Below the pieces are notes generated by a model that was not told where the DNA came from, made no database searches, and worked only from the letters and a program-made list of their open reading frames with translations. A stretch of 36,289 nucleotides of DNA from Planctomicrobium sp. (GTDB lineage: Bacteria; Planctomycetota; Planctomycetia; Planctomycetales; Planctomycetaceae). Where the stretch lies: positions 1 through 36,289 of the forward strand of contig DAOUPA010000007.1 in the NCBI GenBank assembly GCA_030626405.1, in the 5' to 3' direction. The position numbers and the translations under genes are program-made. Below, one piece after another: positions 12,249-24,588 of the stretch (positions are counted from its first letter, which is position 1; each line of letters starts with the position of its first letter).

Positions 12249-15179
12249 ATGTATCGAGTTCTTCTCTCATCCATTTTGTGTTTACTGATTGTCCAGGCAT
12301 CGGTGTTTGCCGAGCAACCAGACGCTGAAGGATTGAAGTTCTTTGAAACAAAAATTCGCCCGGTGCTGGTGCAGCGGTGTTACAAGTGTCATTCCGAAGA
12401 GGCCGTTCAGAAGGATGAACTCGAAGGCGAATTGCTTCTCGACACTCGTGAAGCAACTCGCAAAGGTGGCGAGAGCGGCCCTGCCGTTGTTCCGAGTGAC
12501 GTGAAGTCGAGTTTGCTGATTGCCGCGATTCGGCACGAGTCATTCCAGATGCCGCCGGACACAAAACTTGATGCAGCAGTCATCGCTGATTTTGTGAAAT
12601 GGGTGGAAATGGGATCTCCCGATCCCCGCGATGGAACGGCGACCAGGCCAGCAAAAAGTCAAATCGACATCGAAGCCGGGAAAAATTTCTGGTCTTTCCA
12701 GCCGATCAAATCAGCGTCACCTCCACAGGTAAAAAACGCTGACTGGGGTCGAACTGAGATTGATCGATTTATTCTGGCATCTCAAGAGGAACAAGGCATT
12801 GCTCCAAACGAACAAGCCAGCCGACGCACACTTATTCGTCGAGTCTATTTCGACTTGTGGGGAATTCCACCTGAACCTGCGGACGTGGAAGTTTTTGTGA
12901 ATGATCCGGCTGAGAATGCCTACGAATTTTTGGTTGATCGGCTGTTGGCAGGAGAGCACTTCGGCGAGCGTTGGGCGCGTCACTGGCTCGACTTGGCGCG
13001 TTTTGCAGAAAGCAACGGATACGCTTTCGATAAAGATCGCCCGGCGGCGTATCACTATCGCGACTTCGTCATCAAAGCGTTCAATCAAGACATGCCTTAT
13101 GACGAATTCGTTCGCTTGCAAATCGCAGGTGACCAACTCTCCCCCAATAATTATATGGCTGAAGCCGCGACTGGCTTTTTGGCAGCGGGGACTTTCACGT
13201 CGCAGCAAACACAAAAAGAACGAGAGAGGAGCCGGTACGAACAACTCGATGATATCGTTGCCACAATCGGGACGTCGATGCTCGGCTTAACGGTCGGCTG
13301 TGCCCGTTGCCACGACCATAAGTTTGATCCATTGCCATCGCACGATTATTACCAGTTCGTTTCCTGCTTTGCCGAAACTGGTTTTCAGGATTTCGATTAT
13401 GATCCTGAGCCAGCCAAAACGAAGGCGGCAAAGGACAAGTTCGACAGCGTCCATAAGCCTCTTCTCACTGCACGAACAACGTATGAGCAAAAGCATCTCA
13501 CAGAACAATTGGAAGAGTGGGTCAAGAACCGACCTGCAAGGCCAGAAAAAGCAAAACTGGGCGTCTGGCAATCAATCGGGCCTTTTGCTGCGGCTGATTT
13601 CAAAGCTGCTTACGGAGAAGTCTTTGCCCCGGAAAAAGAGATTGACCTTACGAAAACCTACGATGAATTGAAGTGGACACCTCAACCGAGTTGGGTAGAT
13701 GGCAAAGTTCATAATACGCTGAAAGGAGACAACAGCGCGAATTATCTTTATCGCACTATTGATGTCGGGACTGAACGGCCTCTGAATATCTCGCTGGGAC
13801 GAGACGACGCGATCAAAGTCTGGCTCAATGGTGAACCGGTGCTTGCTAAAGAAGTTTCAGGTGGGGCAGCGGCGGATCAGGATTTGGTGACACTTCAATT
13901 GAAGTCCGGAAGCAATGATTTGCTCGTGAAAATTGTGAACGCTTCCGGGCCATCGGGATTCTATTTCAATGTGAAACCAGCGATCTCTGAAAACATCCAG
14001 AAGATTCTGGACCTCGCTGCTGACAAACGCAACGCGAAGCAAAAACAGGAATTGTTGACATGGTACGGCCCGCGCGATCCCGTTTGGGTCAAACTCAATC
14101 AGGCCGAACAAGAACTCCTCAAGGTGCAGCCCAATCCTGACATCACCAAAGTGTACGCTGCCCGGAAAAATGGCACGACTTACAATTTTGGAGAAAACAC
14201 TCGCAAGGTCTACTTCCTGGCCCGTGGGAATTCAAATTCCAAACAAGGGCTGGCCCCACCCGGGTTCTTCAGTGTCCTGACTGACCACGAGACGTCGAAT
14301 GACCGTTGGCTCGCACCAGAGTCACCAGATGCGAAACCGGGCACACAGCCGCCGCGAGTCGGACTGGCGAATTGGATGACAGACGAAGAACAAGGTGCCG
14401 GTCATCTGCTTGCACGTGTGATTGTCAATCGGCTCTGGCAGCATCACATGGGGCGCGGTATTGTCGCAACTCCCAGTGATTTCGGAAGCCAAGGTGTCGC
14501 CCCGACCCATCCTCAACTGCTGGATTATCTTGCTGGCGAATTGATTCGCAACGATTGGAAGCTCAAGCCGATTCACAAAATGATCATGATGAGCGCAGTC
14601 TACCAGCAATCAGGCGAGGACAATTCACTCGCAGCCAAGGTGGACCCAAATAATAATCTCTGGTGGCGACGCGGCGCAACACGCCTGGAAGCCGAGATCA
14701 TCCGTGATACATTGCTGGCTGTCAGTGGGACTCTGGATAAGAAAATGTTCGGTGCCGGTTCGCTGGACCAGGCGACTCCTCGTCGCAGCATTTATCTCAC
14801 AGTCAAACGCAGCAATCTCATCCCTATTTTACAGCTATTTGATGCCCCTGACACGATTCAGAGCATCGGTCATCGTGATGTGACAACCGTTCCGCCGCAA
14901 GCGCTGGCGATGATGAATTCGCCGCTGGCTCGGCAGCTGGCTGGAAAGTTCGCCAAACGCGTGAACGATGTCCCCGAGGAATCTCCGGATCAGCTTGTCA
15001 GCAAAGCCTACGGATTGGCATTGTCTCGACCGCCGACTGATGCGGAGAGAGAGCAAATGGTCGGGTTCATCAATACACAGACTGTCTCCTACGGGAGCAC
15101 AGACAAAGCAAAGGAATTGGCAGTCGCCGATTTTTGTCAACTGATCCTTTGCCTGAACGAGTTTATCTTCGTCGACTAA
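12249..15179 (+). CDS. PSCyt1-DUF1549-DUF1553 (PSD1) planctomycete cytochrome c protein
   Basis: The 976-residue protein has a signal peptide (ending ASVFAEQ) and then the planctomycete cytochrome c domain PSCyt1 with heme motif C44-Y-K-C47-H48 and a distal MPP motif (SFQMPPDTKL). The DUF1549 (PSCyt2) domain follows (TEIDRFILA, RRVYFDLWGIPP, ERWARHWLDLARFAESNGY) and holds a second heme-type motif, C351-A-R-C354-H355. Between DUF1549 and DUF1553 there is an extra beta-rich segment around nucleotides 13560-13980. DUF1553 (PSD1) completes the protein (RVIVNRLWQHHMGRGIVATPSDFG). These proteins are nearly always paired with a DUF1501 gene, as here 35 bp downstream. They are thought to act in the planctomycete periplasm, possibly in polysaccharide breakdown; no biochemical role is established. 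Confidence 0.93.
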   Translation: MYRVLLSSILCLLIVQASVFAEQPDAEGLKFFETKIRPVLVQRCYKCHSEEAVQKDELEGELLLDTREATRKGGESGPAVVPSDVKSSLLIAAIRHESFQMPPDTKLDAAVIADFVKWVEMGSPDPRDGTATRPAKSQIDIEAGKNFWSFQPIKSASPPQVKNADWGRTEIDRFILASQEEQGIAPNEQASRRTLIRRVYFDLWGIPPEPADVEVFVNDPAENAYEFLVDRLLAGEHFGERWARHWLDLARFAESNGYAFDKDRPAAYHYRDFVIKAFNQDMPYDEFVRLQIAGDQLSPNNYMAEAATGFLAAGTFTSQQTQKERERSRYEQLDDIVATIGTSMLGLTVGCARCHDHKFDPLPSHDYYQFVSCFAETGFQDFDYDPEPAKTKAAKDKFDSVHKPLLTARTTYEQKHLTEQLEEWVKNRPARPEKAKLGVWQSIGPFAAADFKAAYGEVFAPEKEIDLTKTYDELKWTPQPSWVDGKVHNTLKGDNSANYLYRTIDVGTERPLNISLGRDDAIKVWLNGEPVLAKEVSGGAAADQDLVTLQLKSGSNDLLVKIVNASGPSGFYFNVKPAISENIQKILDLAADKRNAKQKQELLTWYGPRDPVWVKLNQAEQELLKVQPNPDITKVYAARKNGTTYNFGENTRKVYFLARGNSNSKQGLAPPGFFSVLTDHETSNDRWLAPESPDAKPGTQPPRVGLANWMTDEEQGAGHLLARVIVNRLWQHHMGRGIVATPSDFGSQGVAPTHPQLLDYLAGELIRNDWKLKPIHKMIMMSAVYQQSGEDNSLAAKVDPNNNLWWRRGATRLEAEIIRDTLLAVSGTLDKKMFGAGSLDQATPRRSIYLTVKRSNLIPILQLFDAPDTIQSIGHRDVTTVPPQALAMMNSPLARQLAGKFAKRVNDVPEESPDQLVSKAYGLALSRPPTDAEREQMVGFINTQTVSYGSTDKAKELAVADFCQLILCLNEFIFVD

Positions 15180-15214
15180 AACGACATGTGAGTCTGTAAT
15201 CAGGACCAACGACA

Positions 15215-16663
15215 ATGCCGTATCAACCTTCTGAATATCGTTCGCGCCGTGCGTTTCTTAAAAACGCTGGGTTAGGATGTGGAACACTTGCACTGACGAG
15301 CTTGCTCAACGATCAGGGACTGCTTTCAACAGCAGACGCTGCCGAGCAACCTCGCTTGATGCAGTCACGCCAGCCTCACTTCGCTCCGAAGGCGAAGGCT
15401 GTGATCTGGCTGTTCATGCCGGGAAGTCCCTCGCAAGTGGACACCTTCGATTACAAGCCGGAATTGCAGAAACGTGACGGGATGAAGCTCGAAGGTGCGG
15501 ACCCGAAAACCGGGTTCTTCACAACGAGCGGAAAAGCTTTGAAGTCGCCATTCAGCTTCAAGCAGTATGGTCAATCCGGCGCGTGGGTTTCTGAAATCTT
15601 TCCAAACATGGCTCAGCATGTCGATGACATGGCATTCCTCTATTCGTGCTATTCGCAGTCGAATAATCATACCCCGGCAATGTTGGAGATGAATTCCGGC
15701 GTCTTTCTGCAAGGACGCCCTTGTCTTGGTTCCTGGCTGACCTACGGGCTGGGAACCGACAATCAAAATTTGCCAGGGTTCGTTGTGATGCATGGTGCGA
15801 TGCCGCGTGGCGGGAAGCCGATTTGGTCACCTGGTTTTCTTCCCAAGGTGTACCAACCAACCTCTATCGATGGACGGAACGCGACTCCCATCGACAATCT
15901 GAAACGTCCCAACGGAATGACCGATCAGCAGCAGCGAGCGCAGCTCAATATCCTCAAGGAGATGAACAATAAACATCAGGAGCTTCGACCGCACGAAGCT
16001 GACCTCGCAGCCAGACTGGAATCGTTCGAGCTAGCCTACCGAATGCAAACGGCTGCTCCAGAGGCAATGGACCTCAGCCACGAGTCCGAAGAAACTCAAA
16101 AGGCATACGGAGTCGATCAGAAAGAAACACAACTCGTCGCCAAACAGTGCATCACCGCGCGTCGTTTAATTGAACGAGGTGTTCGTTTCGTGCAGTTGTA
16201 TGCCGGAACCAATGGAGGTGCCGGTGGCGTGGCAGACGTTCCCTGGGACGGGCATAGTGATATCGGGATCAATCATCGAATTGCCGCTAAAAGTGTCGAT
16301 CAACCGATCGGGGCGTTGCTTGCTGATTTGAAGGCTCGCGGGATGCTCGATGATACTCTCGTCGTTTGGGGCGGCGAGTTTGGGCGAACTTCCGATTCGC
16401 AAGGCAGCAAGGGCCGGGACCACAATCCTCACGCATTCACGATGTGGATGGCTGGTGGCGGAATCAAAGGGGGTGTGCAATACGGTGCCAGCGATGAATT
16501 CGGGTACAAGGCTGTCGAAAACCGCCTCGGCGTGAACGACCTGCACGCAACGATCCTGCACCTCATGGGTATGGACCACAAGAAACTGACTTACCGCTTC
16601 AACGGTCGGGACTACCGACTCACCGACGTTGCAGGCAATGTCGTGAAGGAGATTCTTGCTTAA
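15215..16663 (+). CDS. DUF1501 protein, Tat-exported
   Basis: This 482-residue protein has a Tat signal (SRRAFLKNAGLGCGTLALTSLL, Arg11-Arg12) and the DUF1501 pattern: KAVIWLFMPGSPSQVDTFDYKP, the PWDGHSDIGINH site and VVWGGEFGRTSDSQG. DUF1501 resembles the alkaline phosphatase/sulfatase superfamily in plan, and the Asp, His and Glu residues at these sites may bind metal. It follows the PSCyt1/DUF1549/DUF1553 gene by 35 bp and is almost certainly its operon partner. A ribosome site of modest quality (CAGGA) precedes the ATG. The substrate is unknown. Confidence 0.92.
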   Translation: MPYQPSEYRSRRAFLKNAGLGCGTLALTSLLNDQGLLSTADAAEQPRLMQSRQPHFAPKAKAVIWLFMPGSPSQVDTFDYKPELQKRDGMKLEGADPKTGFFTTSGKALKSPFSFKQYGQSGAWVSEIFPNMAQHVDDMAFLYSCYSQSNNHTPAMLEMNSGVFLQGRPCLGSWLTYGLGTDNQNLPGFVVMHGAMPRGGKPIWSPGFLPKVYQPTSIDGRNATPIDNLKRPNGMTDQQQRAQLNILKEMNNKHQELRPHEADLAARLESFELAYRMQTAAPEAMDLSHESEETQKAYGVDQKETQLVAKQCITARRLIERGVRFVQLYAGTNGGAGGVADVPWDGHSDIGINHRIAAKSVDQPIGALLADLKARGMLDDTLVVWGGEFGRTSDSQGSKGRDHNPHAFTMWMAGGGIKGGVQYGASDEFGYKAVENRLGVNDLHATILHLMGMDHKKLTYRFNGRDYRLTDVAGNVVKEILA

Positions 16664-16994
16664 TCCCACCATTTCCTTCGGTTGATTGAAAATCGAAGTT
16701 CGTCGGGATTTCTTGTAGCAGCATAAGTCTGTCAATCCTTCACTTCTTCTATCCTCCCTCTCTGTTTTTGCTCATCAGGGTACTCTCGAGGGTGGATTGA
16801 ATGAAAGTTTTAGTGAACGAATGGCACCTGCTTGAGTCGCAATGCCCTTGATTGTTCTGTTGAACACGATCGGTCGTTAAACACATTAGCAATGCAGCTC
16901 ACTGGGAAAGAGGACAAAAAGGTATTAATGCACGGTTGCGTTGTTTGTGGTTGTATTGGTATACTTCTATGCATGTCCTAAATGGGAGCATGAA
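16664..16994. other. Intergenic region ahead of the Rrf2-headed operon
   Basis: About 330 bp between the DUF1501 gene and the Rrf2 start. No gene and no terminator hairpin with a T-run were recognised. The right end holds the candidate promoter at 16936-16965. Confidence 0.55.
16936..16965 (+). promoter_or_regulatory. Candidate promoter of the Rrf2-headed operon
   Basis: TTGCGT (16936-16941), an 18-nt spacer and TATACT (16960-16965) give a short leader to the GTG at 16995. GGGAG at 16984-16988 is a good ribosome site. Rrf2 proteins commonly repress their own promoter, so an operator may overlap the -10 region, but no clear dyad was seen. Confidence 0.45.
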
Positions 16995-17489
16995 GTGAAA
17001 CTTCTTTCAGATGCATGTGAATACGGATTGCGGGCGGTTGTCTGGCTGTCTCAGTGTCCGGATGAGCCTCAGAAAGTGAAGGACATTGCGGAGCAAATCA
17101 AAGCTCCTGCCGGGTATTTGATCAAAGTTCTTCAAGACTTGACCAAGGCCGGAATTCTCTCGGCAAGGCGTGGGAGCAATGGTGGTTTCTTAATGCTCAG
17201 CGATCCGGCCAAAATTACTCCACTGGATGTGATCAATGCCATCGACCCGATTGAACGCATCAATACATGCCCACTCGGGATTGCCATTCATGGGAGCGAC
17301 CTCTGCCAAATCCATCGACGCATTGATGACGCAATGGGGGCTATTGAAGAGAGTTTTCAACGGCTTTCGATTCACGAAGTGATCGCGAAAACGGTTGAGA
17401 ACAATTCATTTTGCAACGTCCTGATGTCTTGTGGTGAGATGCGGGATTCGTGTGTTCAAAACGAGGCTACGCAGATCCGAGAGCATTAA
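16995..17489 (+). CDS. Rrf2-family transcriptional regulator
   Basis: The GTG at 16995 is preferred because GGGAG lies 6 nt upstream and the product then begins VKLLSDACEYGLRAVVWLS, the normal Rrf2 opening. The winged helix-turn-helix follows (VKDIAEQIKAPAGYLIKVLQDLTKAGILSARRGSNGGFLM). Rrf2 regulators such as IscR, NsrR and RsrR sense redox state or nitric oxide through an Fe-S cluster. Here the cluster region reads TCPLGIAIHGSDLC, leaving C92 and C104 with His99 and His107 nearby and Glu9 near the N-terminus. That is closer to a two-cysteine RsrR-like arrangement than to the three-cysteine NsrR pattern. The next gene starts 44 bp downstream, so this is probably the operon's own regulator. 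Confidence 0.9.
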   Translation: MKLLSDACEYGLRAVVWLSQCPDEPQKVKDIAEQIKAPAGYLIKVLQDLTKAGILSARRGSNGGFLMLSDPAKITPLDVINAIDPIERINTCPLGIAIHGSDLCQIHRRIDDAMGAIEESFQRLSIHEVIAKTVENNSFCNVLMSCGEMRDSCVQNEATQIREH

Positions 17490-17533
17490 CAAAACAGTTT
17501 GCCTGCGAGTCGCAGGGAGGGGAGCAGAAGACG

Positions 17534-18943
17534 GTGAGCAATGATTCAAAAAACCAAGATGGTAAATCAGAGACCGCAGGGCAACCAGTTCTCGGTACGC
17601 AATCAACTCCCGAAGAGTCAGTGATCTGCTATCAGATGCAACCGATCAAACGGATGCTCAGCGGGTCGGAATGTCGTTCCATGTGCCACCATGGTTCGGC
17701 GGAAGGTAATAAGATGCCACCTTGCTTGCTGAGTGATCAGTCGCACTCAGTCATTGAACTGGAAAAGGTCTGTCGCGTTGGTTTGATGATTACCCCGCAG
17801 GCCAGAGGGGATGTTGTGGACCAAGGTTGGGAAGCAATCTCAACGATTCGAGCTGTTCTGCGGCAACTGTCGATTCCCATGACCGTCACCTCACAAAATG
17901 TGTTTGTCAGCAGTGCTGAGGTGATTGAGCCTCTCCAACAACTCTTTCAAGCTAATTATCGTGACCGAATGCCCGCCACGAATTTCATCGTGCAACCTCC
18001 CTGTGGAGGGCAGGCACTCGCTATTGAGGCATGGGCAATTGGTGGAGAGGACGCGGACGTTCAATTCCTTTCGCCAAATGTTGTCTCCATTCAATATGAT
18101 GGACTGCACTGGGTGCATGTTTCCGGGGTGAAACCTGCGGATCCTGATGCGGACGCCTATACGCAAGCTCAGCAAGTGTTCGATCAGATGGAGTATCAAC
18201 TGGCAGAGGTGGGGGCTTCGTTCAAAGATGTTGTTCGCACATGGATCTACCAAGGTGGGATCACTGACCCTGAAGAGAGCATCGAACGATATCGGGAGAT
18301 GAATCGGGCACGGACGGATTTCTTCGACGCGCAGCAGGCCCTCTGCCAAATGAGAATAAGCAGCGAAGGGAACATGATTTATCCCGCAAGCACCGGCATC
18401 GGGATGATCGGACGCGAACTGAGCCTTTGTGCGATGACCCTGCAGACTGAACGCGATGATGTCAGATTGCTTCCCCTGGAAAATCCACAGCAAACTTCAG
18501 CATTTGATTACTCAAAAAGCTTCTCTGCCAAAAGTCCGAAGTTTTCGCGGGCGATGGCGGTTGTTATTGGAGATTATGTGACCACTTGGATTTCCGGGAC
18601 CGCCAGTATTGTCAACTCTGAGTCAGTTCATATCGGTGACATTGAAAAGCAGACAGAGCAGACGATCGACAATATTCAAAATCTCATCAGCGCCGAAAAC
18701 TTTGAACGTCATGGAGTCCAGGGAGCGGGGGCTGAATTGAGTGATTTGGCGAAAGTCAGAGTTTATATCAAGCATCCCGAAGATTACGAAAAATGTCGCG
18801 CGATCTGCGAGCGACGATTCGGTCCCTTGCCGACGATTTATGCTCAAGCAGATGTCTGTCGATCGGACCTTCTTGTTGAAATTGAAGGCGTTGCGTTTTC
18901 ACAAATTCATGAAAAGTCAGCCAGTTCTGAAGGAGATGAGTGA
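17534..18943 (+). CDS. FkbO/Hyg5-family (chorismatase-like, tandem RidA-fold) protein
   Basis: The GTG at 17534 follows a strong GGGAGGGGAG ribosome site; the product is 469 residues with no signal peptide. The first half contains NFIVQPPCGGQALAIEAWAI and RTWIYQGGI..ESIERYREMNRARTDFF, a pattern I associate with FkbO/Hyg5 chorismate hydrolases. The second half is a RidA/YjgF-like fold (GTASIVNSESVHIGDIEKQ, VRVYIKHPEDYEKC, ADVCRSDLLVEIEGVAF). The Arg used by RidA imine deaminases is not at its usual place, which favours the chorismatase side. A cysteine-rich N-terminal part (C32, C47, C51-H52-H53, C64) is additional and could bind metal. The gene overlaps the next by one base. Actual substrate unknown. 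Confidence 0.75.
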   Translation: MSNDSKNQDGKSETAGQPVLGTQSTPEESVICYQMQPIKRMLSGSECRSMCHHGSAEGNKMPPCLLSDQSHSVIELEKVCRVGLMITPQARGDVVDQGWEAISTIRAVLRQLSIPMTVTSQNVFVSSAEVIEPLQQLFQANYRDRMPATNFIVQPPCGGQALAIEAWAIGGEDADVQFLSPNVVSIQYDGLHWVHVSGVKPADPDADAYTQAQQVFDQMEYQLAEVGASFKDVVRTWIYQGGITDPEESIERYREMNRARTDFFDAQQALCQMRISSEGNMIYPASTGIGMIGRELSLCAMTLQTERDDVRLLPLENPQQTSAFDYSKSFSAKSPKFSRAMAVVIGDYVTTWISGTASIVNSESVHIGDIEKQTEQTIDNIQNLISAENFERHGVQGAGAELSDLAKVRVYIKHPEDYEKCRAICERRFGPLPTIYAQADVCRSDLLVEIEGVAFSQIHEKSASSEGDE

Positions 18944-20772
18944 TGGCTGGTCAATCCGAAAAGTATCCTGAATACCACATTGATGAGGCCACCTCGGGTA
19001 GAGCAGGCTCTCGCCGTAGTCGGAAATCTGCGTCTCAATTCACGTTCGGTGTGCTTGCCATCACCGCTCTCTGCGCACTGGGAGTCGGGTGGCTCACATG
19101 GACGGATTTCCAAAACAGCTTGCCAGATGATGCGTTCACCAAACAGCAGGCAAATCTGGATGCTGCAAAGCAAACAAAGATTCCAGAGAAGTCAGAGGTC
19201 GAGTTAACCGCCATTGCAAATGATTCTGATCCGCTTCCGGAAATTGAAGTCCTGGGCTTAACCACTCCAATCCAACGTAGTCCTTTTACCAGTGAACAAC
19301 CGGTCGTTGTACAGAATGAAATTGACGGTTTTGTCTTTGGCAACTTGGCTGAACTTAATATCGAGCCTGCCAAGCTTTGCTCAGATGAAGTCTTTCTTCG
19401 CCGTGTTTACATCGATACTCTCGGAACACTCCCGACGATGGTAGAAGCGATGCGGTTCCTCGACGATGCCGACCCGCAAAAACGTGCGCAGTTAATTGAC
19501 GAAGTGCTCGAGCGACCTGAGTTCGCGGATTACTTGGCGATGAAATGGTGCGACATCTTACGAGTGAAGGCAGAGTTCCCGATCAAGATGTGGCCGAATG
19601 CAGCGCAGGCTTTTCACCGCTGGATTCGAACATCCATCGACAACAACATGCCGTACGATGAATTCGTTCGTGAAATGTTGACCTCATCAGGTAGCAATTT
19701 CCGAAAACCACAGGCAAATTTCTTTCGATCTGCTCAAAGTCAAGACCCCAAAGTCCTCGCGCATGCGGTTGCCTTATCGTTCATGTGCCAACGTGCCGAC
19801 GCATGGCCTAGCGAAAAATTGGAGGAGATGAGCCTCTTCTTCTCACAGATCGGCTTCAAGCCAACAGTCGAGTGGAAAGAAGAAATCGTTTTCTTTGACC
19901 CTCGCAAAGGGAATGAGTCCGAGTCGGATGTTCTGCATGCAACTTTTCCTGATGGATTAAGCATCAACATTCCTGCTGATCAAGACCCGCGTGAGGTCTT
20001 CGCGGACTGGTTGTTGCATGAGAACAACCCGCTTCTCTCAAGAGCACTCGCGAATCGTGTTTGGTTCTGGCTTCTGGGTCACGGAATTGTTGAGCCTGTC
20101 GACGACTTTCGTCCCGAACATCCGCCCTCAAATCCCAGTTTGTTGAAGCACCTCGCTCAGCAGCTCATCAACACAAACTATGACGTAAAGCATCTGTACC
20201 GGGTGATTCTCAATTCGCACACATATCAACTTGCCTGTCTTCCCAACAGCACAGACCCGCGCGCGGCAGAAAACTTTGCCTTTTATCCCGTGAGACGGTT
20301 GGACGCGGAAGTCTTGATTGACGCGATCTGTCAAATCTCTGGGGTTCCGGAAAGTTACTCCAGCATTATTCCGGAGCCGTTTACTTTTCTACCAGAGGGG
20401 CAGCGAGCAGTCAGTCTGCCAGATGGCAGCATTACCAGCAGCTTTCTAGAGATGTTCGGACGGCCATCGCGCGACACAGGTTTGGAGTCGGACCGCAACA
20501 ATCGTCTCACCGCAGCTCAATCGTTGCATCTTTTGAATTCCAATCACTTACGCAACAAACTGAGGAAAGGTCCGGGCATCGAAAATATTGTTCGAGAGTC
20601 ATGGAGTTCGATGGACTCTGATCCTTCTGAAGCGATTTTTCTCGCGATCCTTTCACGACGTCCGACCGATGATGAAGTTTCTGTCGTGGGCGATCTGTGT
20701 GTCAATTCGGGTGGTGCCCAGGAAGTTGCCTGGGCGCTTATTAACAGCGATGAATTTTTGTTTCGGCATTAA
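18943..20772 (+). CDS. Membrane-anchored DUF1549/DUF1553 protein without heme motif
   Basis: The ATG at 18943 shares its A with the upstream TGA stop, and AGGAG lies 7 nt before it, so translation is coupled to the FkbO-like gene. Residues about 33-54 form one membrane segment (FGVLAITALCALGVGWLTW) after a short basic N-terminus. DUF1549 follows (LRRVYIDTLGTLPTMVEAM, YLAMKWCDILRVK, NNMPYDEFVREML) and then DUF1553 (RALANRVWFWLLGHGIVEPVDDF, PVRRLDAEVLIDAICQISG). There is no PSCyt1 domain, and where relatives have CxxCH the sequence is C282-Q-R-A-D, so no covalent heme is expected. The partner DUF1501 gene starts 55 bp downstream. The anchored form suggests a fixed location at the inner membrane. 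Confidence 0.9.
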   Translation: MAGQSEKYPEYHIDEATSGRAGSRRSRKSASQFTFGVLAITALCALGVGWLTWTDFQNSLPDDAFTKQQANLDAAKQTKIPEKSEVELTAIANDSDPLPEIEVLGLTTPIQRSPFTSEQPVVVQNEIDGFVFGNLAELNIEPAKLCSDEVFLRRVYIDTLGTLPTMVEAMRFLDDADPQKRAQLIDEVLERPEFADYLAMKWCDILRVKAEFPIKMWPNAAQAFHRWIRTSIDNNMPYDEFVREMLTSSGSNFRKPQANFFRSAQSQDPKVLAHAVALSFMCQRADAWPSEKLEEMSLFFSQIGFKPTVEWKEEIVFFDPRKGNESESDVLHATFPDGLSINIPADQDPREVFADWLLHENNPLLSRALANRVWFWLLGHGIVEPVDDFRPEHPPSNPSLLKHLAQQLINTNYDVKHLYRVILNSHTYQLACLPNSTDPRAAENFAFYPVRRLDAEVLIDAICQISGVPESYSSIIPEPFTFLPEGQRAVSLPDGSITSSFLEMFGRPSRDTGLESDRNNRLTAAQSLHLLNSNHLRNKLRKGPGIENIVRESWSSMDSDPSEAIFLAILSRRPTDDEVSVVGDLCVNSGGAQEVAWALINSDEFLFRH

Positions 20773-20827
20773 AGAATTTCAGGAACAACGATATCGAGTG
20801 AATCTCATTCCCGCAAAGAGGTGTACC

Positions 20828-22204
20828 ATGACTAAAAACCGTTCCTTTTCTGAGTTGCAGGTGCTCACGCGTCGGCAGGCAGTCCATTGTGGTGCCCTGA
20901 GCGGAGCCGGCATGATGTTGGCCTCCCGATTACTTGCCGGAGAAACATCTGGCAAACCAGACTCCTCGTCTGCGGTACCACAAGTGGCGAAAGCGAAAGC
21001 GGTGATTCAGGTTTGGCTGGCAGGCGGACCAACTCACATCGATACGTTTGATCCCAAACCTGAGGCAGGCTCCGATTACACCGGGCCTTTGAGCGGGACT
21101 TGCTCGACGAACGTACCGGGAATTCATATTGGCGAATTGTTGCCTGAGCTGAGTCAGTTGGCTGACAAGTATTCGTTAATTCGCAGCATGACGCATGGGC
21201 AAAATGGACATGAGACGGCGTCCTATCTAACGCAAACTGGACGAATGCCAGGGCGAATGGTCTTCCCGGCGGTGGGTGCGGTGGTGACCGCTCTGAACAA
21301 GCCTCCCAAGTCGAATAAAAAGGAACCGGAAGGTCTCATCCCGCCTTACGTTGTTCTGACCAGTCCGCAAGGTCGCTTCTCCGAAGCGGGTTTTATGGGC
21401 ATTCGCTACAAGCCGTTTGCCACAGGTGGAGACCCCAACGCAGCGAGGTTTGCTGTTGAAGGCATCGTGGCTCCTGGGATTTCCGATTCACAACAGGTGG
21501 AACGCCGCCAGATGCTGAAGATCCTGAACTCTCTAGGCAACGAATTGAGTGACAATACTGAATTGGCGATTGCCGCCAAATCGCGGGAAGATGCCTACGA
21601 TTTAATTCTGGGTGATGCCGGACAGGTCTTTAATCTCGCGGGTGAAGACGAAGAATTGCGTCTTCGTTATGGTCGCAATAAATTTGGACAGTCATGTCTG
21701 GCTGCCCGACGATTGATTGAGAATGGGACAAAGTTCGTCACGATCAACGATGGTGGCTGGGATACGCATAAAGCCCATTTTGAAGCGATGCGCCGAAAGC
21801 TTCCGATCCTTGATCGTGGTCTGTCAACGTTAATCGCCGACCTCGATGACCGCGGATTGCTCGACAGTACGATTGTATGGTGCATCGGAGAGTTTGGTCG
21901 CACGCCGAAAGTGGCAACAGAGTCTCCCTGGAACGGAGGTCGCCATCACTTTGGCAGCGTATTCTCCAGCCTGGTCGCCGGTGGGGGTTTCAAAGGCGGG
22001 CAGGTCGTTGGCACCTCCACTGTTCATGGGGAGAATGTCAAGGATCGTCCGGTCTATCCCGGAGACTTGATTGGAACGATGTACGAACTCGTCGGTATCG
22101 ATCCCGAAGCAAGCCTGCCACATCCGCGCGGCGATTTTGTTCGCGCCACACCCGGCGCCGACGAAGGCATGGAATCGGGCGGTCGCCTCAATGAGATCAC
22201 TTAG
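20828..22204 (+). CDS. DUF1501 protein, Tat-exported (second)
   Basis: The ATG at 20828 follows AGAGGTG and gives a Tat signal (LTRRQAVHCGALSGAGMMLA, Arg15-Arg16). An upstream in-frame start at 20588 would lie inside the preceding gene and is rejected. The 458-residue product shows the DUF1501 motifs KAVIQVWLAGGPTHIDTFDP, MTHGQNGHETASYLTQTG, INDGGWDTHKAHF and VWCIGEFGRTPKV. Compared with the DUF1501 protein at 15215-16663, the metal-type residues are all present and the sequence is clearly divergent. It is paired with the DUF1549/DUF1553 gene upstream, as is usual in this phylum. Confidence 0.92.
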   Translation: MTKNRSFSELQVLTRRQAVHCGALSGAGMMLASRLLAGETSGKPDSSSAVPQVAKAKAVIQVWLAGGPTHIDTFDPKPEAGSDYTGPLSGTCSTNVPGIHIGELLPELSQLADKYSLIRSMTHGQNGHETASYLTQTGRMPGRMVFPAVGAVVTALNKPPKSNKKEPEGLIPPYVVLTSPQGRFSEAGFMGIRYKPFATGGDPNAARFAVEGIVAPGISDSQQVERRQMLKILNSLGNELSDNTELAIAAKSREDAYDLILGDAGQVFNLAGEDEELRLRYGRNKFGQSCLAARRLIENGTKFVTINDGGWDTHKAHFEAMRRKLPILDRGLSTLIADLDDRGLLDSTIVWCIGEFGRTPKVATESPWNGGRHHFGSVFSSLVAGGGFKGGQVVGTSTVHGENVKDRPVYPGDLIGTMYELVGIDPEASLPHPRGDFVRATPGADEGMESGGRLNEIT

Positions 22205-22215
22205 AAATATGCCGT

Positions 22216-22246
22216 GTGCCACTGCTGGCTTGCCCAGCAGTGGCAC
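22216..22246. repeat. Perfect intergenic palindrome, GTGCCACTGCTGG type
   Basis: GTGCCACTGCTGG and its exact complement form a 13-bp stem with a 5-nt loop (CTTGC). It starts 12 bp after the DUF1501 stop codon and lies 74 bp before the next start, inside the operon. I recall 'CCACTGCTGG..CCAGCAGTGG' repeats from many planctomycete genomes. It could stabilise the upstream mRNA or reduce read-through. Confidence 0.7.
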
Positions 22247-22320
22247 CGAGTTGCGATCCATTCAACCCTGAAGTGAAGCCACGACGGAGTACTGGTCCCA
22301 AGACGGAAATGGAAGAAATC

Positions 22321-24588
22321 ATGTCTCGTAGCAAAAACGTCTGGCTGTACTCTGTGGCGATAGGAATCATCGGTTTCTCCTTCACGACAGCTCAGCTAGA
22401 CGCACAAGATCCACATGTCGCTTATGTGTTTCCGGCGGGGTGTCGATTGGATACGACATGCAAAGTTGTTCTCGGCGGACAACACATCAAGGATGCCAGT
22501 GAAGTGCATATCTCAGGCGTTGGCGTCAAAGCAGAAATCGTGAGCTGGTATCGCCCGATGTCACGCGGCATGTACAACCAGTTGCGGATGCGACTTGCGG
22601 ATATCCGAGAAGAACTGGTTGAGAAAGGGAATAAAAAACCGTCGAAAGCTGATGTTGCATTCGCCGCCGGAGTCTCCGATGAAGAATTGAGCGAAATGGA
22701 AATCTATTTGGCGAGGGAGCGAGATCCCAAACGCCAACCGAACGATCAATTGGCAGAAGAACTCACGCTACGGCTCACTGTCTCTGCCGATGCGAAATTG
22801 GGTAAACGCGAATTGAGGCTAGTGACAGAATCGGCGATGTCGAATCCACTATGGATTCAGATTGGGAAATGGCCGGAGGTGAGCGAAACCGAGCCGAACG
22901 ACACAATTCCGAACGCGATCATCGACCAGATGCCGATTGTGATCAACGGTCAAATTTTTCCCGGCGACACCGACAGTTTTTCTTTTAACGCCCGACAAGG
23001 TCAAAAACTGGTCATTGAAGTCGGGGCACGCGATGTGATTCCTTTTCTGGCCGATGCTGTTCCCGGTTGGTTTCAAGCGACCTTGGCACTGACTGATTCC
23101 TCTGGAAAAGAAGTCTCCTACTCCGACTCATTTTATTACCGCCAAGATCCCGTAGTCTACTTTGAAGTCCCGAGTGATGGTCGTTACACGTTTCATATTC
23201 GTGATTCGGTTTATCGTGGACGAGAAGATTTTGTCTATCGGATTACTCTCGGAGAACTCCCATTTGTGACGAGTGTTTTCCCTCTCGGTGCCCGCTATGG
23301 GACGAAGGTGAATGTGGAACTCCAGGGATGGAATCTCACCGATACAACATTCGAGACACAGTTGATGTCCCGTCGCAAATTCCGGCCGGTCGAATGGTGT
23401 TCGCTCGAGCAAGGCGATGGAGAATCTGTTCGCTTTCCATTACATGTTGACCTTTTGACTGACGTGTTTGACGAAGAACCGAACAACACGATCGATACAA
23501 GTCAGGAAGTCACCACACGTGTGAACGTTCACGGGAGAATCGACACTCCCGGCGATCAAGATGTCTATTTCATCAAAGGCCAAGGGAAGCTCGTTGCAGA
23601 GATTCTGGCACGACGGCAAGGTTCCCCCCTCGACTCTCAGTTGACCCTCACGAATATCGATGGGAAAGAAATCGCCTTCAACGATGACCACGAAGACAAA
23701 GGTCAGGGGTTGCAAACGCACCATTCGGATTCGGTTCTAGAAGCCTTTATTCCCTCATCGGGTGCCTACCTCCATGTGAGCGATACACAACACAATGGAG
23801 GCAAAGACTTTGTCTACCGACTCAGCCTGCGAGCTTCTGAACCGGACTACGAAATTCGTGTCACTCCAGGCACTATCGTTGCACGTGCAGGCGCAATTAC
23901 ACCTATTACAGTCTTCGCGCTCCGTCGCGACAACTATCAGGAAGATATTGAACTGGCACTGCTCGACGCTCCACCGGGATTTGAATTATCTGGAGGTATC
24001 ATTCCCGGTAATGCCGACCGCGTCTCGTTGACCCTCAAGGTTCCCTCAACAGCACCAGAAGAACCGGTTCTTCTCGACATGATCACGCGCGGACGACGTG
24101 GACGTGGTAACCGTGCCTGGTTGACTCATCCCGCGATTCCAGCAGAGAATATGGTGCAGGCATTCATTACGTATCACCTGGTCCCAGTTGAAGACTGGAC
24201 TGTGATCGTCAGCGGCAAGCCTCGTACACAAGTTCCGTTCGAGGTCGTCAATAAATCTACTCGTTTGAATCTGCCTCTGAAAAAAGAATTTCTCCTGAAC
24301 GTGAAACCTTTGGTGAAAAATATCGCGGCTGATGAATTGCGAGTTGACGTCAAAGAACCCAAAGGTGTTACTGCGGAAATCATCACCGGACGAATGGGAC
24401 AATTTGCGATCAAGTTGACAGTGAATCCGGAAGAAGCCACTCCTGGCTTGAGTGGCAATCTGCTCTTGCGTGCATTCCAGGAAACCACACCAGCCCCCAC
24501 AGAAGAAAATCCCAACCCCAAACCTCGCCGCACTGATTACGGATTCTTGCCAGCCATTCCGTTTAAAATCGCAGAGCACTCGCGCTAA
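22321..24588 (+). CDS. Secreted protein with pre-peptidase C-terminal (PPC)-type domains
   Basis: The ATG at 22321 has GGAAG 5 nt upstream and opens a signal peptide (WLYSVAIGIIGFSFTTAQLDAQ). The longer frame back to 22216 would read through the palindrome. The 755-residue product begins with an IPT-like section (HVAYVFPAGCRLDTTCKVVLGG). Two PPC-type beta domains follow, each opening with an 'ETEPNDT' or 'DEEPNNTIDTSQ' motif and having GDTDSFSF or GDQDVYFIKG. An 'FPLGARYGTKVNVELQGWNL' IPT-like part lies between them. The C-terminus is Ig-like. Such proteins are common near DUF1553/DUF1501 pairs and are probably carbohydrate- or cell-surface-binding. It ends 15 bp before the convergent gene. 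Confidence 0.85.
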   Translation: MSRSKNVWLYSVAIGIIGFSFTTAQLDAQDPHVAYVFPAGCRLDTTCKVVLGGQHIKDASEVHISGVGVKAEIVSWYRPMSRGMYNQLRMRLADIREELVEKGNKKPSKADVAFAAGVSDEELSEMEIYLARERDPKRQPNDQLAEELTLRLTVSADAKLGKRELRLVTESAMSNPLWIQIGKWPEVSETEPNDTIPNAIIDQMPIVINGQIFPGDTDSFSFNARQGQKLVIEVGARDVIPFLADAVPGWFQATLALTDSSGKEVSYSDSFYYRQDPVVYFEVPSDGRYTFHIRDSVYRGREDFVYRITLGELPFVTSVFPLGARYGTKVNVELQGWNLTDTTFETQLMSRRKFRPVEWCSLEQGDGESVRFPLHVDLLTDVFDEEPNNTIDTSQEVTTRVNVHGRIDTPGDQDVYFIKGQGKLVAEILARRQGSPLDSQLTLTNIDGKEIAFNDDHEDKGQGLQTHHSDSVLEAFIPSSGAYLHVSDTQHNGGKDFVYRLSLRASEPDYEIRVTPGTIVARAGAITPITVFALRRDNYQEDIELALLDAPPGFELSGGIIPGNADRVSLTLKVPSTAPEEPVLLDMITRGRRGRGNRAWLTHPAIPAENMVQAFITYHLVPVEDWTVIVSGKPRTQVPFEVVNKSTRLNLPLKKEFLLNVKPLVKNIAADELRVDVKEPKGVTAEIITGRMGQFAIKLTVNPEEATPGLSGNLLLRAFQETTPAPTEENPNPKPRRTDYGFLPAIPFKIAEHSR

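Follow-up and report, generated by a model that had tools for sequence, protein, structure and literature searches.

The DUF1549/DUF1553 (PSCyt2/PSD1) and DUF1501 families are abundant in planctomycetes and unexplained; in Rhodopirellula baltica, the PSD1 and PSC2 domains were each found 41 times (PMC2754498), and the PSCyt genes of Verrucomicrobia offer a further system for comparison (PMC5615132). The chorismatases FkbO, Hyg5 and XanB2 (PF21168; structures 5ag3, 5a3k and 4bps) form a second group, in which two glycines and a cysteine mark the CH-II subfamily and a glutamate acts as the essential acid or proton donor (PMC7170507). Here we describe a locus in which members of both groups stand side by side. 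In the literature searched, we found no description of the resulting four-gene cassette, no paper joining planctomycetes with a chorismatase in the sense of this cassette, and no paper with both Rhodopirellula and Rrf2. As shown below, the cassette is real and conserved, and in that literature it is undescribed.

Layout of the locus

The window analysed is a stretch of 36,289 nucleotides from Planctomicrobium sp. (contig DAOUPA010000007.1). All five same-strand open reading frames listed in a preliminary description were present, with gaps of 44, -1, 55 and 116 bp from gene 1 to gene 5, the one-base overlap of genes 2 and 3 reading TGATG. Gene 1 (16995..17489, + strand, GTG start) encodes an Rrf2-family regulator of 164 aa (PF02082, E 2.6e-23), and gene 2 (17534..18943, + strand, GTG start) a chorismatase-like protein of 469 aa, referred to as Chor, with FkbO_Hyg5-like_N (E 4.4e-7) and L-PSP (E 9.7e-19) domains. 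Gene 3 (18943..20772, + strand, ATG start) encodes a haem-less DUF1549/DUF1553 protein, referred to as PSC, with an N-terminal transmembrane anchor. It is followed by a DUF1501 protein with an RR-type export signal (gene 4, 20828..22204, + strand), which exceeds the Pfam cut-off (PF07394, E 1.2e-88, 298.4 bits), and by a secreted protein (gene 5, 22321..24588, + strand) that we call PPC-like, since its PF04151 score of 23.8 bits (E 8.7e-5) lies below the Pfam cut-off of 25.9. We infer a single transcript for all five genes. The last three products had been described as surface proteins; their export features hold up (a transmembrane anchor or signal peptide, RR-type signals), and a surface location goes beyond what these features reveal. 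Directly upstream lies a canonical DUF1549/1553 and DUF1501 pair (12249-16663), the first protein of which carries two CXXCH motifs, and a DUF1559 gene is found on the opposite strand 3' of the five genes.

Genes 2 to 5 form a conserved cassette

An alignment of four Chors served as the query for collecting Chor relatives from 84,980 species, each represented by one genome, and the open reading frames at 80 Chor loci were scanned with profiles built from the window proteins; these loci are the best 80 of 102, and the search patterns favour the subfamily of the window Chor. Among these best 80 of 102 loci, PSC directly follows Chor in 35, and all four genes (Chor-PSC-DUF1501-PPC-like) occur in the same order and orientation in 29, ending each time with a gene 5 homologue, in both Planctomycetota and Verrucomicrobiota. 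The preliminary description had suspected a linked unit behind this unusual gene mix and had proposed a gene-order survey over Planctomycetota; genes 2 to 5 do recur as such a unit, in that phylum and beyond it, and the constancy of their order goes far beyond chance. Four of the six incomplete loci among the 35 stop at the end of the available sequence (L015, L022, L041, L051); in L042 the PSC is split across two open reading frames with DUF1501 and PPC genes still downstream, and in L081 it is a short fragment. In many cassette loci, the genes are separated by a few bases or overlap.

The outer neighbours of the four genes vary between lineages. A PP2C-type phosphatase gene lies directly 5' of the cassette in four Stieleria-type genomes (L024, L025, L026, L033), and a second PSC-DUF1501-PPC triad is found upstream in verrucomicrobial L031, L032, L036 and L039. 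A cytochrome-oxidase subunit III-like (NorE-like) gene sits between a haem-less triad and Chor in L030, L031, L036 and L039, the contig of L030 beginning inside that gene. In L018 the triad precedes Chor, and in one genome of the window's family (G077) several PSC-DUF1501 pairs or full haem-less triads occur without a cassette Chor. Since triads are thus found without Chor, or extra to or separate from it, the trio may also work alone.

In a tree of Chor sequences, a single supported clade unites 32 of the 34 cassette rows with L018 and L040. One of its halves is mainly planctomycete and the other verrucomicrobial; the remaining two cassette rows (L045, L051) belong to a neighbouring verrucomicrobial clade. 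The cassette label requires 5 changes on this tree, against 25.7 in shuffles. Within the window's family, a full Chor match was obtained in 5 of 170 genomes (G000, G015, G021, G088, G112), and the cassette-type PSC in the same five and, on its own, in G077; other PSC matches across the 170 genomes drop to about half the score. This co-occurrence and the structure of the Chor clade indicate that the cassette is old, inherited as a unit and patchy in its distribution.

Gene 2 is predicted to be a chorismatase

The preliminary description had taken gene 2 for a chorismatase-like protein without signal peptide, and both its fold and its active-site residues agree with this; no N-terminal signal peptide was seen in the sequence. 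Chor passes the PF21168 cut-off (30.4 against 27 bits) and does not reach that of TIGR04444, the FkbO/Hyg5 chorismatase model (166.7 against 325 bits). In its AF2 model (pTM 0.84), residues 67-469 are mostly confident and residues 1-66 disordered. Alignment of this model with VIA-align gave Z 36.5 for Hyg5 (5ag3; 320 aligned residues, rmsd 2.9 A) and Z 36.1 for FkbO (4bps), compared with Z about 11 for single RidA proteins, so that on the model Chor has the chorismatase fold across its full folded length. With the CH-II criteria of PMC7170507 renumbered for Hyg5 (a shift of +9, taken from the glutamate), we find that G173, G240, C327 and E334 of Hyg5 correspond in the alignment to G288, G355, C442 and E449 of Chor. 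Across 77 sequences, the positions of G240, C327 and E334 never vary, and that of G173 is kept in 75; 31 of 37 family-invariant residues are identical in Hyg5, and at G240 and C327 Chor matches Hyg5, not FkbO. Sequence and model together make Chor convincingly chorismatase-like.

Because the chorismatase fold, the catalytic glutamate and the Hyg5-type Gly and Cys residues are all retained, formation of 3-hydroxybenzoate from chorismate is the best prediction for its activity. The C327-type residues are invariant across the whole wider family sampled and therefore cannot single out the product here, which may instead include or be 4-hydroxybenzoate. Chor also differs from FkbO, Hyg5 and XanB2 in several respects: it is 23-28% identical to them in structural alignment, has a disordered Cys-rich N-terminal tail, and sits with genes for exported proteins rather than in a polyketide or pigment cluster. 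The tail motifs CYxMxPxRxLL and PPCLL are common to many cassette Chors and absent from non-cassette Chors, except for the first motif in L018.

An unlikely though far from negligible alternative is that gene 2 keeps the chorismatase/RidA fold and acts on another substrate, such as isochorismate, aminodeoxychorismate or a reactive imine or enamine like RidA, in which case the cassette would not be about hydroxybenzoate. The score below the TIGR04444 cut-off, the match of parts of Chor to single RidA proteins and the diversity of the family, FHA fusions included, are consistent with this, but the retained Hyg5 glutamate, cysteine and glycines and the far stronger structural match to chorismatases than to single RidA proteins argue for chorismatase chemistry.

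A haem-less branch of the DUF1549/DUF1553 proteins

PSC scores above the Pfam cut-offs for both PSD1 (PF07587, E 4.9e-42, 144.5 bits) and PSCyt2 (PF07583, E 6.1e-30, 105.2 bits). The cassette thus shares its domain families and gene order with planctomycete PSCyt2/PSD1 and DUF1501 pairs such as that at 12249-16663. Unlike these canonical pairs, it has no PSCyt1 domain in the domain search and no CXXCH haem motif, either in the window PSC or in any of the 35 cassette homologues, some of which are partial; where canonical proteins read like GCARCHDHKFDP, cassette PSCs read like FMGERAEKWP. It further differs in the added PPC-like gene and chorismatase and in altered DUF1501 motifs, as cassette DUF1501 proteins have the common motif THGxNGHETA and mostly GRHH (GRHHF/YG) in place of GRDH.

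In a quick PSC tree, 40 haem-less PSCs lie on one side of a branch with SH-aLRT support of 98, a value to be read with a long-branch warning among four canonical rows. A single loss of the haem motif therefore suffices to explain their distribution. Since no cassette PSC has a CXXCH motif and the haem-less PSCs group together, the label 'cytochrome' does not apply to them; by this motif PSC does not count as a c-type (planctomycete) cytochrome, and it should not be assigned the redox role that has been suggested for such domains in general. A Foldseek search with the AF2 model of PSC (mean pLDDT 72) returned nothing under E 0.001. In a second structural comparison, the matches (Z 3.9-6.5) were nearly all phycobilisome linker domains, including all of the top 23 rows, a consistent match that at Z up to 6.5 is too weak for assigning a linker-like fold. 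Searching solved structures by sequence yielded nothing convincing for the PSC, DUF1501 and PPC-like proteins.

The Rrf2 regulator is a local addition

In Fe-S-binding Rrf2 proteins, the usual ligand set comprises three loop cysteines (plus His, Asp or Glu). The window Rrf2 resembles IscR, NsrR and RsrR in its superfamily, its winged-helix region and its loop C, C and H residues, and it passes TIGR00738 (84.5 bits, cut-off 73.3). It differs in that it stays far below the equivalog cut-offs for NsrR, IscR, RirA and CymR (46.3 against 182 bits for NsrR, NF008240), in that its operator is predicted only, and in that the third loop cysteine is absent. The loop reads C-x11-C-x2-H with a further His, is conserved in all four orthologues, and presumably forms an incomplete ligand set compared with IscR or NsrR. 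As two of the three usual cysteines are present together with histidines, the protein may respond to an Fe-S or redox input. The orthologues also start at the same residue as the GTG-initiated window protein.

Of 33 cassette genomes, only four have an Rrf2 orthologue at the head of the cassette, namely the window, L010, L017 and L020, the latter three proteins being 54-70% identical to that of the window. Other planctomycete cassette genomes have Rrf2 paralogues near 40% identity, and most verrucomicrobial ones have no Rrf2 at E 1e-10. We therefore reject Rrf2 as a core part of the cassette; the Rrf2 head is a local, lineage-specific addition. Of the Rrf2-headed operon put forward in the preliminary description, the four-gene unit thus stands, and the Rrf2 head as a general feature does not.

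A generic strict-consensus promoter scan yielded no hit in front of Rrf2, and its total of sites did not exceed that in shuffles. Reading by eye, we presume a sigma70-type promoter at 16936..16965 (+ strand; -35 TTGCGT at 16936-16941, 18 nt, -10 TATACT at 16960-16965), whose -35 box overlaps an operator-like imperfect palindrome at 16927..16942 (+ strand; AATGCA-cggt-TGCGTT, that is TGCA-N4-TGCA with 1 mismatch). A similar layout, with the -35 inside or adjoining the palindrome, is seen 5' of Rrf2 in the other three loci, and TGCA-N4-TGCA with 0-1 mismatch is common to all four, no more than 120 bp away from where Rrf2 starts. Of 1792 half-site/gap patterns it performed best, and 1 in 3000 composition-matched random quadruples equalled it (about 3e-4), in a search that was post hoc and based on four sequences. 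Ahead of cassettes without Rrf2, the palindrome was not found at most loci, and weaker one-mismatch sites were present at a few. In L013, which has no adjacent Rrf2, a sequence similar to the palindrome of the Rrf2 loci, the inverted repeat CGTGTGC-GAAAAT-GCACACG, lies about 164 bp 5' of the Chor open reading frame.

We also considered whether the cassette belongs to denitrification or NO handling under an NsrR-like Rrf2. L028 is flanked by NosZ and NosD, with ABC-transporter genes resembling the rest of a nos cluster, L044 by NosZ, and L010 by a NapA-like protein and a NapB-like cytochrome; the subunit III-like gene in four verrucomicrobial loci and Rrf2 genes near several cassettes point the same way. 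Against this, NosZ, the only denitrification gene scored genome-wide, exceeds its cut-off in no more than 5 of the 33 cassette genomes and in none of the 170 family genomes and was rejected as a consistent partner, and the Rrf2 orthologue is rare and scores poorly on the NsrR model. We regard this alternative as improbable, a nitric-oxide or denitrification role being weakly supported; the nearby NosZ genes are possibly a local association. Because the Rrf2 orthologue heads so few cassettes and NosZ is inconsistent, the redox or NO control suggested at the outset is not supported for the cassette in general.

A candidate module for the cell envelope

Taken as a whole, the best explanation, to which we give an even chance, is that genes 2 to 5 act as one functional module of a hydroxybenzoate-making Chor and an exported trio, placed here under local Rrf2 control. 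This reading is based on the gene order kept in 29 loci of two phyla, the one main Chor clade and the co-occurrence of PSC and Chor in the family, and it retains an earlier suggestion, now as a conserved unit, that a cytoplasmic small-molecule enzyme is linked to exported DUF1549/1553, DUF1501 and PPC-like proteins. In the proposed sequence of events, gene 2, judged by fold and residues, would be a chorismatase of the cytoplasm whose active-site residues are of the Hyg5 type (CH-II), converting chorismate most likely into 3-hydroxybenzoate and pyruvate, possibly with some 4-hydroxybenzoate as in XanB2. The haem-less DUF1549/1553, DUF1501 and PPC-like secreted proteins, whose gene arrangement is observed and whose activity is putative, would be made alongside it. 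In the last and weakest step, the exported trio would bind, install or process hydroxybenzoate or its derivative in the cell envelope. The local Rrf2 repressor probably binds the predicted palindrome over the -35 box, so that a putative Fe-S, thiol or NO input might act through it on its own expression and on that of the module. No recurring 3-hydroxybenzoate-using neighbour (acyl ligase, PKS) was seen beside the cassette.

More tentatively, and as a possibility to which we give limited credence, this would be an undescribed envelope system of PVC bacteria: hydroxybenzoate from a chorismatase would feed a haem-less offshoot of the planctomycete cytochrome/DUF1501 machinery. If true, the cell envelope would be the site of a new use for an aromatic acid derived from the shikimate pathway, and the function of DUF1549/1553-DUF1501 systems would gain a first point of entry. 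The cassette ties a haem-less branch of these families by gene order to an enzyme with predictable, assayable chemistry and occurs in named strains (Rhodopirellula rubra, R. sallentina, Aporhodopirellula aestuarii and Stieleria sedimenti), so that an open question on a whole protein class becomes testable.

It is very improbable that the hydroxybenzoate is the starter of an outer-membrane pigment of the aryl-polyene type handled in the envelope by the trio. According to PMC3949708, XanB2-type enzymes make 3- and 4-hydroxybenzoate for xanthomonadin-type pigments, and beta-/gammaproteobacterial relatives (L075, L078, L080) lie within the wider Chor family, but acyl ligase, ACP and ketosynthase genes were not seen to recur beside the cassette. 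Least probable of all is that the genes are functionally unlinked neighbours kept together by chance or slow rearrangement. In favour of this, Chor and the trio each occur on their own; against it, the order is the same in two phyla while the outer neighbours differ, the gaps in many loci are minimal, and co-occurrence in the family is patchy.

Relatives of Chor outside the cassette

Neighbours of cassette-free Chor relatives (L008, L009, L046, L047, L048, L053, L055, L057, L061, L074) often cluster with an HzsA-like c-type protein (PF18582), in some cases accompanied by a beta-propeller/cytochrome gene; this also applies to most other members of the clade that holds L045 and L051. Chors of the sister clade (L045-L048, L051, L053, L055, L057, L074) carry a separate type of Cys-rich tail, approximately PTPCxxPAPCGxPCELxLGPERH, which differs from the CYxMxPxRxLL...PPCLL tail of the cassette; these may be metal or redox sites. 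Finally, Chor-like proteins with an N-terminal FHA domain (PF00498, E 1e-15 to 1e-16) are present in Kiritimatiellota/Lentisphaerota (L067:9488-11188, L070:9518-11197 and L073:2949-4733).
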